Assembly (NCBI RefSeq): GCF_000244975.1
Contig: NZ_CM001440.1
Span: 1,043,538-1,107,537 of the forward strand
Origin: Saccharomonospora cyanea NA-134
Lineage (GTDB): Bacteria > Actinomycetota > Actinomycetes > Mycobacteriales > Pseudonocardiaceae
Direction of reading: 5' to 3'
DNA length: 64,000 nt
A model generated the notes under the pieces. That model was not told the origin of the DNA. It was given only the letters and a program-made list of their open reading frames with translations, and did no database searches. This document shows, piece after piece, positions 1,727-11,855 of this stretch. Within the stretch, counting starts at the first letter, position 1; each line of letters starts with the position of its first letter. The position numbers and the translations under genes were made by a program.

Positions 1727-1774
1727 GTGACACCGCAGCTTGTTCTCGTAATTTCCCCGCGCGTCGGCGCGTAG
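1727..1774 (+). CDS. ilvB leader peptide (15 aa, branched-chain residues)
   Basis: GTG-initiated frame encoding [15 protein letters not shown] and ending at TAG 1772-1774. Residues 5-9 are Leu-Val-Leu-Val-Ile, the three end products of the pathway. It sits between the promoter and an intrinsic terminator upstream of ilvB. A GC-rich hairpin (CCCCGCGC at 1755-1762 with GCGC at 1767-1770 and GGGG at 1774-1777) overlaps its 3' end and could act as the pause structure. This is the classical layout of ribosome-mediated attenuation, in which scarcity of charged Leu, Val or Ile tRNA stalls the ribosome and relieves termination. Confidence 0.8.
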
Positions 1775-1800
1775 GGGAAGTCCCTCTGCGTCGACGCGCG

Positions 1801-1838
1801 ACCCTCGTGCGACCACACCTGGTCGGCGGGGGTTTTTT
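1801..1838 (+). terminator. Attenuator terminator upstream of ilvB
   Basis: ACCC (1801-1804) and CGACC (1810-1814) pair with GGTCG (1821-1825) and GGGT (1830-1833) around a six-base loop, and a run of six T follows at 1833-1838. It lies about 90 bases before the ilvB start, so it can only regulate read-through into ilvBNC. Confidence 0.75.
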
Positions 1839-1929: not shown

Positions 1930-3792
1930 ATGACCAGCGCCACCTCGCGATCGGACGCGACCGCCGGGTCGACACCGAACTCGGCGTCACCCGCCAACTC
2001 TGGACCCCGCCCCAAGCCGACACCGCCCGCAGGAGTACCCGTTCGGGTGACGGGCGCGCAGTCGCTCGTGCGGTCCCTCGAAGCCGTCGGCGTCGAGGTG
2101 GTCTTCGGTATCCCCGGTGGCACGATCCTTCCCGCGTACGACCCGCTCCTCGACTCGACCAAGGTGCGGCACGTCCTCGTGCGGCACGAGCAGGGCGCGG
2201 GCCACGCGGCGACCGGCTACGCGCAGGCCACCGGAAGGGTCGGCGTGTGCATGGCGACGTCCGGGCCGGGTGCGACCAACCTGGTGACGCCGCTCGCGGA
2301 CGCGTACATGGACTCGGTTCCGGTGGTCGCCATCACCGGGCAGCAGACCCGGGCGCTCATCGGCTCGGACGCGTTCCAGGAAGCCGACATCTGCGGCATC
2401 ACGATGCCCATCACCAAGCACAACTTCCTCGTCACCGAGCCCGCCGACATCCCCAGGGTGATCGCCGAGGCGTTCCACCTGGCGAGCACCGGACGGCCCG
2501 GCCCCGTGCTGGTGGACATCCCCAAGGACGTGCTCCAGGAGACGACGTCGTTCGCGTGGCCGCCTGAGCTGAACCTGCCCGGCTACCGGCCCACGCTGCG
2601 TCCCCACGGCAAGCAGGTCAGGGAGGCGGCGCGCCTCATCACACAGGCCAGGCGGCCCGTGTTCTACGTCGGAGGCGGAGTGCTCAAGGCCGGGGCGGCC
2701 GAGCAGTTGCGTGAACTGGTCGAGCTCACCGGCATTCCCGTGGTGACCACGTTGATGGCCCGCGGCGTGTTCCCCGACTCGCACCGGCAGCACCTCGGTA
2801 TGCCGGGCATGCACGGCTCGGTGGCGGCGGTCGCTGCGATGCAGCGCGCGGACCTGCTCGTGGCGCTGGGCGCGCGCTTCGACGACCGGGTGACGGGCAG
2901 GCTGGAGTCGTTCGCCCCCGAGGCGAAGGTGGTGCACGCCGACATCGACCCGGCCGAGATCTCCAAGAACCGCAAGGCCGACGTGCCGATCGTGGGTGAC
3001 TGCGCCGAGATCATCACCGAGTTGATCGACGCGGTGCGGAACGAGACGTCCTACGGCGAGTCCGCGGACCTGGCCGCGTGGTGGTTGCAGCTCAACTCGT
3101 GGCGGGACACGTTCCCCGCGGGCTACGAGTGGCCGTCCGACGGGACGCTGGCGCCGCAGTACGTCATCGAGCGCATCGGGAAACTCGTGGGACCCGACGC
3201 CATCTACGCGGCCGGGGTCGGGCAGCACCAGATGTGGGCGGCCCAGTTCATCTCCTACGAGCAGCCGCGAACGTGGATCAACTCGGGTGGTCTCGGCACG
3301 ATGGGGTTCGCCGTGCCCGCGGCCATGGGCGCCCAGTTCGGCAGGCCCGACAAGCAGGTGTGGGCCATCGACGGCGACGGTTGCTTCCAGATGACCAACC
3401 AGGAACTCGCCACGTGCGCCATCGAGGGAGCGCCCATCAAGGTGGCCGTCATCAACAACGGCAACCTCGGCATGGTGCGGCAGTGGCAGAACCTCTTCTA
3501 CGCCGAGAGGTACTCCAACACCGACCTCGGCACGCACAAGCACCGCATCCCGGACTTCGCGCTGCTCGCCGAGGCACTCGGCTGTGCGGGCCTGCGGTGT
3601 GAGACCAAGGACTCCGTCGACGACACCATCCGCAGGGCCATGGAGATCAACGACCGTCCGGTGGTGATCGACTTCGTCGTGGGCAAGGACGCCCAGGTGT
3701 GGCCGATGGTGGCTGCCGGGACGAGCAACGACGAGATCATGGCCGCGCGGGGCATCCGACCGCTGTTCGACGAGGACGAGGTGTCGCAGTGA
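1930..3792 (+). CDS. ilvB: Acetolactate synthase large (catalytic) subunit
   Basis: ThDP- and FAD-dependent enzyme joining two pyruvates to acetolactate, or pyruvate and 2-oxobutyrate to acetohydroxybutyrate, the first common step to Val/Leu/Ile. 620 residues, with a Pro/Ser/Thr-rich N-terminal extension of about 35. Family landmarks are [18 protein letters not shown], the catalytic glutamate in [14 protein letters not shown], the FAD-region [11 protein letters not shown], and the ThDP/Mg site [15 protein letters not shown] followed by [12 protein letters not shown]. The ATG at 1930 is preceded by a purine-rich AGGCGAG. It heads an ilvB-ilvN-ilvC operon (gaps 40 and 43 bp) and is controlled by the attenuator at 1727-1838. 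Confidence 0.97.
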
Positions 3793-9237: not shown

Positions 9238-10086
9238 CTACGGGCCGTCCCCGGTGTGGGGCGGCCTTGCCGCCGTGCGGTAGTGGTACCCGCAGAGTTC
9301 CCTGAAGCCGGCTCGCGTGTAGAGGCGACACGCCGCGACGTTGTCCCGCTCCACCTGGAGGTACAGGTGGTCGGCGTGCCGGGTGGCCGCCCAGTGGGCC
9401 AGCGCGGCCACCACCGCGCGTGCCGCACCCCTGCCCCGAGCCCGCGGAAGCGTCGCGATCCCGAACAACCCCGCCCAGCCCGTGTCGACGACGGCCCGGC
9501 CCACCGCCACCACGTCGCCGCCGAGCACCGCGCGGGCGAACCCGGAGGGACACCTCACGCGTTCCAGCAGCGCCCACTCGGCGCGGGAGTCGCCGCCGTG
9601 CACGGCGTGCCAGGTGTCGAACCACGCCCGTGTCGGGTGTTCGTCCACCACCACCCACGCCGGAGGCGGGCCGAGGAGGTCGACGGCCCGAGCGACGGAG
9701 GCCGTTCGCAACGACATCGGGCTCTCCACGCGGTAACCGCGCTCGGCGAGCAGGGAGTCGAGAGAGTCCGGGCACGCCCCGGGACTGATCTGGAACCGGG
9801 CGAGTGAACCTCGGCGGGTGTAGAACTCCTCCGCCGCCTCGACCCGGCACACCAGTCGCTCACCCGAGGCGTCCGCGTTGGGGAGCACCGACCGCACCCA
9901 CCAGGCCGCGGCGGGAGCGTCACGCAACCACCAGCCGTCCGCACGCCGCACGGTTTCGGCGGGCACGGCCCGGGCCGTCCTCTCCTGAATCAGGCGCACC
10001 GGCTCCGGCACGGTGGGTTCCTCGGACTTCTCACGGAACGGACTCACGGGCGTGCCTGCCCGTGACTGTGGCAGGATGTGGGGCAT
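9238..10086 (-). CDS. GNAT-family N-acetyltransferase
   Basis: 282 residues. The C-terminal half is a GNAT domain with the acetyl-CoA loop (ATLPRARGRGAARAVVAALA) and the closing strand-helix LYLQVERDNVAACRLYTRAGF; the N-terminal half (about 1-130) is a less conserved second domain, as in two-domain GNAT proteins. The substrate cannot be told. The ATG at 10086 shares the palindrome CATG with the divergent cimA leader ORF. On its strand a GAGAGG lies six bases before the start, and GATAAT lies further upstream inside the Ile codons of the leader. Confidence 0.82.
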   Translation of the reverse strand: MPHILPQSRAGTPVSPFREKSEEPTVPEPVRLIQERTARAVPAETVRRADGWWLRDAPAAAWWVRSVLPNADASGERLVCRVEAAEEFYTRRGSLARFQISPGACPDSLDSLLAERGYRVESPMSLRTASVARAVDLLGPPPAWVVVDEHPTRAWFDTWHAVHGGDSRAEWALLERVRCPSGFARAVLGGDVVAVGRAVVDTGWAGLFGIATLPRARGRGAARAVVAALAHWAATRHADHLYLQVERDNVAACRLYTRAGFRELCGYHYRTAARPPHTGDGP

Positions 10087-10129
10087 GACCACCTCTCGCG
10101 TGATCATTATCGGCAGGCGCGCCGGGTAG
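10085..10129 (+). CDS. cimA leader peptide (14 aa, three consecutive isoleucines)
   Basis: ATG-initiated frame encoding MTTSRVIIIGRRAG, ending at TAG 10127-10129. The codons ATC-ATT-ATC form an isoleucine control region, matching citramalate synthase, which starts a threonine-independent route to isoleucine. A CAGGAT -10-like box (10072-10077) lies seven bases before the ATG, suggesting a leaderless transcript. A second in-frame start, GTG at 10100, would give MIIIGRRAG. It is followed by an alternative hairpin and an intrinsic terminator. Confidence 0.8.
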   Translation: MTTSRVIIIGRRAG

Positions 10130-10156
10130 TGCTGAGAAGCTCCAGCACCGGCGCGC

Positions 10157-10189
10157 AGACCTCTCGCATCCCAGCGGGGGGTCTTTTTT
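10157..10189 (+). terminator. Attenuator terminator upstream of cimA
   Basis: AGACCTCTCGC (10157-10167) pairs, with two G-U pairs, with GCGGGGGGTCT (10174-10184) and is followed by a T-run. Upstream, CGCGCC around the leader stop can pair with GGCGCG before the terminator, enclosing GTGCTG/CAGCAC, so a competing antiterminator fold exists. It lies about 30 bases before the cimA start. Confidence 0.75.
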
Positions 10190-10220
10190 GTTGGTCCGCC
10201 CATCCTCGCAAGGAGATCCC

Positions 10221-11855
10221 GTGAGCCGCACGGAACCCGCTGACACCCCGCTCGGGGACCAGTTCCACCTGTACGACACGACGCTGCGTGACGGAGCCCA
10301 GCGGGAGGGCATCTCGTACTCCATCACCGACAAGCTGGCCGTGGCGAGGTTGCTCGACGACCTCGGTGTCGGGTTCATCGAGGGCGGTTGGCCCGGCGCA
10401 CTGCCGAAGGACACCGAGTTCTTCGCGCGCGCGGCCGAGGGGGAGCTGGAACTGCGGCACGCGGTGCTCGTCGCGTTCGGGTCCACGAGGCGCGCGGGTG
10501 TCGCCGTCGCCGACGATCCCCAGGTGCGGGCGCTGCTCGACTCGCGGGCCCCGGTCGTGACGCTCGTGGCGAAGTCGGACGTCCGGCACATCGAGCGCGC
10601 GTTGCGTGTGGACGTCGACGAGGCGTGCGCGATGGTGCGTGACACGGTGTCGTTCCTCGTCGGCGAGGGCAGGCGGGTCTTCGTGGACGCCGAGCACTTC
10701 TTCGACGGCTACGCCCACGACCCGGACACGGCGTTGCGGGTACTCGACGCGGCGGGCCAGGCGGGCGCGGACGTCGTGGTGTTGTGCGACACGAACGGCG
10801 GGCAACTGCCACTGGGTATCGCCGAGACCGTGCGTGAGGTGGCGGGGCGGACGGGCCTGCGCCTGGGCATCCACTGCCAGGACGACACGGCGTGTGCCGT
10901 GGCGAACACCGTCGCCGCCGTGCAGGCCGGGGTGACGCACGTGCAGTGCACCGCCAACGGTTACGGCGAGCGGGCGGGCAACGCGGACCTGTTCGCGGTG
11001 GCGGGCAACCTCGTTGCGAAGCTCGGGATGCCGGTGCTGCCGCCCGCGCGCACGGCGGCACTGACCCGCACGGCGCACGCGCTGGCCGAACTGGCCAACA
11101 TCGCGCCCGACACCCACCAGGCCTACGTGGGCGCGTCGGCGTTCGCGCACAAGGCAGGCCTGCACGCGAGCGCGATCAAGGTGGATCCGTTGCTGTACAA
11201 CCACATCGACCCGGCGGTCGTGGGCAACGACATGCGGGTGCTCGTGACCGAGATGGCGGGCAGGGCGAGCCTGGAGCTCAAGGGGCGGCAGCTCGGTGTC
11301 GACCTCGCGGGAAAGCCGGAGGCGTTGGCGAGTGCGTTGAAGAAGGTGAAGGCGCTGGAGGCGGAGGGGTGGTCCTTCGAGGCCGCCGACGCGTCCCTGG
11401 AGTTGTTGCTGCGCGCGGAAGCCGACGACCTGCCCGCCGAGGCGCCGTTCCGGCTCGAGTCCTACCGCGTGGTGCTCGACCGCCGCATGGGCGGCGACGT
11501 CGTGTCGGAGGCCACGGTCAAGGTGCACGTGGGCGGGGAGCGGGTCATCGCGACCGCCGAGGGCAACGGTCCCGTGCACGCGCTGGACGCCGCGCTGCGG
11601 CAGGCACTGCGTTCGCACCTGTCCTGGTTGGACAGCGTGGAGTTGTCCGACTACAAGGTGCGCATCCTCGCGGGCAAACCGGGCACGGACGCCGTCACCC
11701 GCGTGCTCGTGGAGTCGAGCGACGGTGACCGGAGCTGGACCACCGTGGGTGTGCACCCGAACATCGTCGAGGCGAGCTGGTTGGCCCTGTGTGACGCGCT
11801 CGTGCACAAGTCCCTGGCGGTGTCCCGTCCGGAAGCCCCGGACACGCGTGCGTGA
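10221..11855 (+). CDS. cimA: (R)-citramalate synthase
   Basis: Condenses pyruvate with acetyl-CoA to citramalate, which leuCD and leuB convert to 2-oxobutyrate for isoleucine. 544 residues. An HMGL-like TIM barrel begins with LYDTTLRDGAQREGISYS; GYGERAGNADL lies near 255; the C-terminal LeuA-type regulatory domain (about 390-530) is present. The usual metal-binding HxH reads HCQDD (IHCQDDTACAVANT), so the second His is Gln. AAGGAG (10210-10215) precedes the GTG by five bases. The last codons (Asp-Thr-Arg-Ala) and the TGA lie inside a 21-bp dispersed repeat. Related possibility: isopropylmalate synthase. The Ile leader and the chain features favour CimA. Confidence 0.88.
   Translation: MSRTEPADTPLGDQFHLYDTTLRDGAQREGISYSITDKLAVARLLDDLGVGFIEGGWPGALPKDTEFFARAAEGELELRHAVLVAFGSTRRAGVAVADDPQVRALLDSRAPVVTLVAKSDVRHIERALRVDVDEACAMVRDTVSFLVGEGRRVFVDAEHFFDGYAHDPDTALRVLDAAGQAGADVVVLCDTNGGQLPLGIAETVREVAGRTGLRLGIHCQDDTACAVANTVAAVQAGVTHVQCTANGYGERAGNADLFAVAGNLVAKLGMPVLPPARTAALTRTAHALAELANIAPDTHQAYVGASAFAHKAGLHASAIKVDPLLYNHIDPAVVGNDMRVLVTEMAGRASLELKGRQLGVDLAGKPEALASALKKVKALEAEGWSFEAADASLELLLRAEADDLPAEAPFRLESYRVVLDRRMGGDVVSEATVKVHVGGERVIATAEGNGPVHALDAALRQALRSHLSWLDSVELSDYKVRILAGKPGTDAVTRVLVESSDGDRSWTTVGVHPNIVEASWLALCDALVHKSLAVSRPEAPDTRA

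Follow-up and report, generated by a model that had tools for sequence, protein, structure and literature searches.

Leaders upstream of ilvB and leuS in Actinobacteria were described in the 2005 survey by Seliverstov et al., the accessible text of which contains no cimA leader (PMC1262725). The ilvBNC leaders, including Streptomyces IlvL (MRTRILVLGKRVG), the LVVI leader of Mycobacterium ilvB1 and the leader of Corynebacterium ilvB-II, consist of a short ORF with branched-chain amino acid codons, a hairpin and a terminator. According to the available part of the respective report, IlvL is leaderless in S. lividans (PMC8079986). The mode of action of the ilvB leader is called unclear in the accessible text of the survey, because changes to the regulatory codons in S. 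coelicolor had no effect (PMC1262725); for ilvB1 of M. tuberculosis, replacement of the leader codons LVVI by AAAA abolished induction by chlorflavonin, an inhibitor of IlvB1, as stated in the available section of that study (PMC13236596). The leuS attenuator of Actinobacteria combines a two-hairpin module with a codon run that matches its pathway, and Streptomyces leuS leaders are drawn with an antiterminator in the accessible part of the 2005 paper (PMC1262725). For leuA, the LEU element is described there as a pseudoknot, with the Leu codons and the Shine-Dalgarno sequence paired to each other in its base stem (PMC1262725), and the openly available parts of two papers describe leuA leaders without a typical terminator (PMC1262725, PMC8079986). 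The trp, ilv and leu attenuators of E. coli carry tandem end-product codons in a leader ORF, a terminator before the first gene and an overlapping 2:3 antiterminator.

Here we describe a leader upstream of cimA in Saccharomonospora cyanea NA-134, analysed within a window of 64,000 nt (the whole stretch of DNA studied), to which coordinates refer unless a contig is given (Table 1). A preliminary description of this DNA had proposed a 14-codon ORF with three consecutive Ile codons before cimA, followed by an intrinsic terminator with a T-run about 30 bases before the gene. Both are present: the ORF runs from ATG at 10085 to a TAG ending at 10129 and holds ATC ATT ATC, and the terminator hairpin T (10157-10184) is followed by a U-run ending 31 nt before the GTG start of cimA at 10221. 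The gene had also been assigned to CimA rather than isopropylmalate synthase. In agreement with this, its product exceeded the cut-off of TIGR00977 and fell below the cut-offs of all the others among the 21 listed families, isopropylmalate synthases included, and a separate LeuA is encoded elsewhere in the genome (TIGR00970, 865.7 bits, cut-off 697.4); an isopropylmalate synthase identity is ruled out by the TIGR00977 score together with the separate LeuA. A threonine deaminase is also present in the genome.

Table 1. Features of the cimA leader, its target gene and sister leaders of the same genome
Feature	Position	Strand	Basis
Extended -10-like promoter element TGTGGCAGGAT	10067..10077	+	Sequence; recurrence in relatives
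Leader ORF MTTSRVIIIGRRAG, with stop codon	10085..10129	+	Sequence; homologues in 69/70 family loci and 144/145 cimA leaders
Putative regulatory Ile codons ATC ATT ATC	10103..10111	+	Sequence; the two nearest P1 kept in 69/69 family leaders
Hairpin P1	10117..10156	+	Folding; covariation; 5' arm shares nucleotides with the final codons of the leader, 3' end touches T
Intrinsic terminator T (hairpin 10157-10184, U-run 10184-10189)	10157..10189	+	Terminator scan, folding, pairing conservation
Shine-Dalgarno sequence AAGGAG of cimA	10210..10215	+	Sequence
cimA, citramalate synthase, presumed regulated gene	10221..11855	+	TIGR00977, 581.9 bits (cut-off 450)
ilvB sister leader ORF, GTG start, 15 residues	1727..1774	+	Sequence
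ilvB sister hairpins (P1 1758-1800 abutting terminator 1801-1833, then U-run)	1758..1837	+	Folding, gap 0
leuS leader MSTGFLLLTKPC (L289)	G000:C1:3698584-3698680	-	R1 match; leucyl-tRNA synthetase-like ORF named by eye

A -10-like hexamer, CAGGAT (10072-10077) with TGTGG before it, lies 7 nt upstream of the leader ATG. No promoter was found when positions 9500-10700 were scanned for the sigma-70 consensus. Across relatives, the best -10-like hexamer stands 6-7 nt upstream of the start codon in 120 of 144 cimA leaders, the allowed range being only 5-9 nt. The spacing and position of this element, and its recurrence in relatives, suggest that transcription may start at the A of the leader ATG, and hence that ribosomes may read the leader ORF on a leaderless mRNA.

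Folding of the leader region gave -53.4 kcal/mol (z = -4.18), a value equalled by none of 200 shuffles. Two hairpins, P1 and T, lie downstream of the Ile codons, and in the window P1 ends exactly where T begins. The stem of T has 11 pairs, 7 of them G-C, with a 6-nt loop before the T-run, and the terminator scan returned two overlapping matches here, compared with 0.4 expected in shuffles. T is not the terminator of an upstream gene, since the neighbouring GNAT gene is divergent and T accompanies the leader and cimA in different families. A T-box model had no match in the window at the gathering score, nor at E up to 5 in 10040-10240. Among Rfam 15 families, riboswitches included, the only window matches at the gathering score were two tRNAs, and three sRNA matches to the leader at 10040-10240 were all far below that score; no Rfam family was recognised at the leaders.

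The element is widely conserved in the family Pseudonocardiaceae, in which 148 of 150 genomes have a CimA match (8 of these weak, E 8e-10 or worse). That relatives would carry the leader ORF, the Ile codons and the terminator, as the preliminary description implied, proved correct for many genomes of the class and for 69 of 70 family loci, window included, where leader, P1 and T lie upstream of cimA; these 70 comprise the 30 best loci, the window among them, and 40 more, mostly one per genus. Only L075 departs from this: genome G096 has two cimA-like copies, and L075, the second of them, is without the leader. The product of this copy (G096:C268) is 71% identical to the window CimA, and its upstream region resembles a cobalamin riboswitch. 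For the family alignment, L075 was excluded and two identical elements were removed, leaving 67 of the 69, with the leader starts of L045 and L066 set by hand.

In these 67 sequences, 98.4% of the cells of P1 and T are paired (100% of counted cells for T), with two-sided changes at 8 pairs, compared with 1.9 in shuffles. A further 79 sequences from outside the family were aligned to the covariance model R1 and hence lean towards it; in this set 97.1% of cells are paired (99.7% for T) and 144 cells show two-sided change, compared with 30.9 in shuffles. By the count of pairs with two-sided change, the non-family set reached only 12, compared with 10.0 in shuffles, and 28 of 500 shuffles were as high. 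The four basal P1 pairs beside T, GCGC, are invariant in all 79 non-family elements. A chance ORF next to a chance hairpin is ruled out by this conservation and covariation. Within alignment A1, which covers the family leaders, the terminator's 5' arm (ACCUCUC) is almost invariant, being conserved beyond what pairing needs, and the 3' arm alternates between GGGGGG, GAGGGG and GGGAGG; both A together never occur in these 67 sequences and do occur outside the family, for example in L123.

The junction of the two hairpins is tight. P1 and T are separated by no more than 1 nt in all 148 elements measured, compared with 395 of 740 shuffled controls, so that part of this closeness comes from folding, which alone gives 0-1 nt in about half of the shuffles. 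The count covers 148 of 151 elements, as L106, L139 and L143 were dropped when the script found no U-run; it includes three non-cimA elements (L114, L115 and L128) and does not contain the family element L078, where the leader is present. At three unrelated terminator-like sites in the window, the gaps to the preceding hairpin are 0, 2 and 4. Outside the class, two cimA leaders have wider gaps, 4 nt in one and, in the other, 2 nt by eye (4 by script).

R1, built from the 67 family elements, matched 189 of the 296 genomes of the class, in 89 of 115 genera; for comparison, TIGR00977 was above its cut-off in 230 of the 296. Where the surroundings of R1 matches were read (n = 84, the best 30 and 54 picked for diversity), 81 lie before cimA, 2 before ilvB and 1 before a small ORF. 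The last of these, L128 (G332:C37), has the leader MMFALVIIM and the same module upstream of a 107-aa ORF without a Pfam match. A DNA pattern search of named genomes found at least 119 stretches, and among the 80 loci listed cimA is directly downstream in 77, the sequence of the remaining three ending too soon to show the downstream gene. These loci include Nonomuraea, Actinomadura, Streptosporangium, Thermobifida fusca, Nocardiopsis, Saccharothrix, Glycomyces and Catenulispora. Six cimA genes were also taken from genomes that R1 did not match, and no leader was visible by eye at any of them; two of these apparently have their own promoter close by, two lie close behind another gene and two have nothing recognisable. 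In family f19, no cimA leader was seen by eye at L161 and L163, and other genomes match R1 (for example G249, E 1.7e-9); some members of f19 may therefore lack the element or have it in changed form. At the level of the phylum, R1 matched 33 of 198 genomes, and among the matches fetched from beyond the class two belong to cimA, one with the leader MSASIIIIA and the other with a longer leader that ends in AIIIC. No described cimA attenuator was found in the open-access literature. As far as literature searches show, the cimA leader is a widespread, undescribed member of the actinobacterial leader attenuators.

The codon anatomy of the leaders was compared in 145 cimA leaders from 23 families, with the non-cimA elements L114, L115 and L128 left out. 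One or more Ile codons lie just upstream of P1 in 144 of them, and 140 have at least two. Within these 144, the run is of three codons in 88, two in 51, one in 4 and four in 1, and the distance from the last Ile codon to P1 is 4-5 nt in 117 and 4-9 nt in 139 (range 0-9). In 102 leaders the stop codon falls 10-16 nt within P1, in 41 it is 1-5 nt upstream of P1 and in 1 it is 1 nt inside, such that a ribosome at the stop codon with the usual footprint would mask the 5' arm of P1. A short peptide core, IIxxRAG, recurs in many relatives; across the whole set only the Ile run is kept, the rest of the peptide varying or missing, and the variable position of the stop suggests that the peptide tail is dispensable. 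At least one ATT is present in 141 of 144 runs, whereas the expectation is about 8% of leaders, and ATT accounts for 194 of the 374 codons in these runs compared with 32 of 964 Ile codons (3%) in cimA bodies (background from 112 loci, some holding the same gene twice). In family f10, the leaders L110, L111, L112 and L156 have a single Ile codon, ATT, followed in three of the four by the Thr codons ACG ACC, as in MSTACCITT; the parallel isoleucine route starts from threonine.

Similar leaders stand before other genes as well. The window itself contains one before ilvB (ilvB match 2050-3744), some 8 kb away from that of cimA. Most of the codons CTT GTT CTC GTA ATT in this ilvB leader seem uncommon for this kind of genome, a count having been made for ATT. 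R1, which was built from cimA leaders only, matched two f12 ilvB leaders (E 4.1e-14 and 9.1e-11), f20 ilvB leaders (E between 1.8e-5 and 1.5e-4; sequences fetched for four of the five matches) and the leuS leader of the same genome (E 1.4e-8). In one large-genome genus, the ilvB leader that R1 matched in the four genomes fetched is identical to the IlvL sequence given in the available part of the S. lividans report (PMC8079986). The ilvB leaders that were folded have P1-T gaps of 0-1 (L307 could not be folded), and the codon runs match the pathways, with LVLVI before ilvB, LLL before leuS and the Ile run before cimA. By these R1 matches, the cimA element is homologous to the actinobacterial ilvB/leuS leader module. 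Separately, a leader read by eye, MARALLLRCRDGA, stands upstream of leuA in this genome and contains three Leu codons (L286, about 1264-1305).

Compared with the described systems, the cimA leader resembles the ilvBNC leaders in its short branched-chain-codon ORF, hairpin and terminator, the likeness to Mycobacterium ilvB1 and Corynebacterium ilvB-II being one of description in the accessible texts (PMC13236596, PMC10272879). It differs from them in that they precede ilvB with a mixture of Leu, Val and Ile codons, whereas the cimA leader has an Ile-only run before the committed citramalate step, and it is not among the eight leader peptides of S. lividans in the available part of that report (PMC8079986). 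It shares the two-hairpin module and the pathway codon run with the leuS attenuator, which differs in its Leu codons and in preceding a synthetase gene. Unlike the leuA leaders, it has a strong T, and the cimA Shine-Dalgarno sequence lies outside the hairpins, in contrast to that of the LEU element. From the E. coli attenuators it differs in that no overlapping antiterminator was found in the cimA leaders, in which T is folded in nearly all modelled states.

This last point was examined by folding 147 elements (the P1-T gap set minus one further element) with a ribosome on the Ile codons, with a ribosome on the stop codon, or with none, in a model of nested secondary structure at equilibrium, that is, one without pseudoknots or kinetics. 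The mean pair probability of T was 0.97-0.999 in every ribosome state, and T fell below 0.5 only in single states of 4 elements, two in the free state and two with the 5' arm of P1 covered; the latter, L081 and L091, change in the wrong direction for the mechanism proposed below. With T folded in nearly all states, secondary structure alone predicts constant termination. The preliminary description had also posited a GC-rich fold that competes with the terminator. This was not borne out: P1 abuts T and shares no bases with it, and in none of the 147 elements does an alternative pairing outweigh T, the best partner of either arm gaining at most 12.5 kcal and T itself ranging from -13.8 to -25.0 kcal. 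With a ribosome at the stop codon, the RNA upstream of the 3' arm of T averages only -5.9 kcal. In the family, P1 opened at its base allows a weak 2:3 hairpin between the 3' arm of P1 and the 5' arm of T (GCGCAG-ACCU-CUCGC), which looks weaker by eye in several relatives. By eye, state folding and energies, no general antiterminator emerged from pairing the 3' arm of P1, the P1 loop or the leader codons with the arms of T; one group alone (for example L079 and L080) showed, on inspection by eye, a 7-bp pairing between the leader codons (GGTCTGC) and GCAGACC. Hence, folding predicted no classical trp-type antiterminator sharing bases with T.

Sensing at the Ile codons coupled to premature termination upstream of cimA is the best reading of the element. 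The sequences themselves show the leader and its codon match, the conservation, covariation and spacing of P1 and T and, in folding, the lack of a base-pair antiterminator. We consider it likely that the element is a ribosome-mediated attenuator that tunes cimA to charged Ile-tRNA, an interpretation whose Ile dependence, leaderless translation and steric action of P1 we infer. In this mechanism, transcription would begin at the leader ATG and a ribosome would translate the leader at once. When isoleucine is plentiful, the ribosome would reach the stop codon and cover the 5' arm of P1, T would close and the polymerase would stop before cimA. When isoleucine is short, the ribosome would halt on the Ile codons and leave P1 largely free to form. 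Since a ribosome stalled on Ile frees P1 and one at the stop codon covers it, P1 would have to hinder T for regulation to run in the useful direction, and as the two hairpins share no bases, contact would be the simplest way for it to do so. In a functioning terminator, the base of the hairpin lies within the RNA exit channel of the polymerase. An abutting P1 helix without a linker would therefore obstruct T: as a stiff G-C helix joined directly to it, P1 would block T sterically and allow read-through into cimA. Such a switch probably lets the cell make CimA only when isoleucine is short.

More tentatively, and with the odds somewhat against it, the same may hold for the actinobacterial branched-chain attenuators in general, in which the starvation hairpin would touch T, share no base with it and occupy its place in the exit channel. 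If true, such contact antitermination would account for the failure of the 2005 survey to recognise a switching mode in the ilvB leaders, as well as for the GCGC clamp beside T and the geometry common to the cimA, ilvB and leuS leaders.

Other explanations were weighed against this one. The element could be a classical attenuator whose base-pair antiterminator escaped the folding, for example by being a pseudoknot, by pairing over a long range or by forming as a kinetic folding intermediate. Mutually exclusive structures have been proposed, in the accessible parts of the reports, for ilvB1 of M. tuberculosis (PMC13236596) and ilvB-II of Corynebacterium (PMC10272879), the weak 2:3 hairpin does appear when P1 is opened at its base, and the 5' arm of T is near-invariant in the family, as if it had a second partner. 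However, the best alternative pairing never exceeds T in any of the 147 elements, little folding energy is left upstream of the 3' arm of T with a ribosome at the stop, and the 2:3 hairpin looks weaker by eye in several relatives, which makes a missed antiterminator unlikely. Alternatively, control could lie with a protein or another factor, the leader and terminator being real and the Ile codons not the sensor; the 5' arm of T is more conserved than pairing needs, and the S. coelicolor ilvB codon mutants kept their regulation in the accessible account (PMC1262725). Yet the codon mutant of M. tuberculosis ilvB1 lost induction, by the available text (PMC13236596), codon identity follows the downstream pathway in the cimA, ilvB and leuS leaders, and the remaining leader peptide varies or is missing; we judge control by such a factor marginally less probable still than a missed antiterminator.

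Two further possibilities concern P1 and the peptide. In the E. coli trp leader, a pause hairpin plays a role in synchronising ribosome and polymerase. P1, which is compatible with T in free RNA by folding, could likewise keep ribosome and polymerase in step, with termination largely constitutive and only weakly tuned; but a pause alone offers no route to read-through on starvation, and the 0-1 nt spacing of P1 and T would be unnecessary, making this reading improbable. Finally, the nascent leader peptide might itself arrest the ribosome and so sense isoleucine, a view to which the core IIxxRAG of many relatives lends itself. Because the RAG tail is missing where the stop precedes P1 (41 of 144 leaders, such as L103 and L104) and the ilvB and leuS versions carry different peptides, an arrest peptide seems highly improbable. 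Attenuation through the Ile codons, with P1 acting on T, thus remains the preferred reading.

On this preferred reading, the committed step of the citramalate route would be under a codon-matched RNA switch, beside the ilvB, leuS and leuA switches. As the genome also encodes threonine deaminase, it can be asked if an Ile sensor is confined to one of the two entries to isoleucine. The leaders collected here provide about 150 natural variants for asking how leaders switch without a visible antiterminator, and the nearly obligatory rare ATT codon offers a second testable rule. Practical settings include the production of isoleucine and citramalate and precursor supply in actinomycetes.
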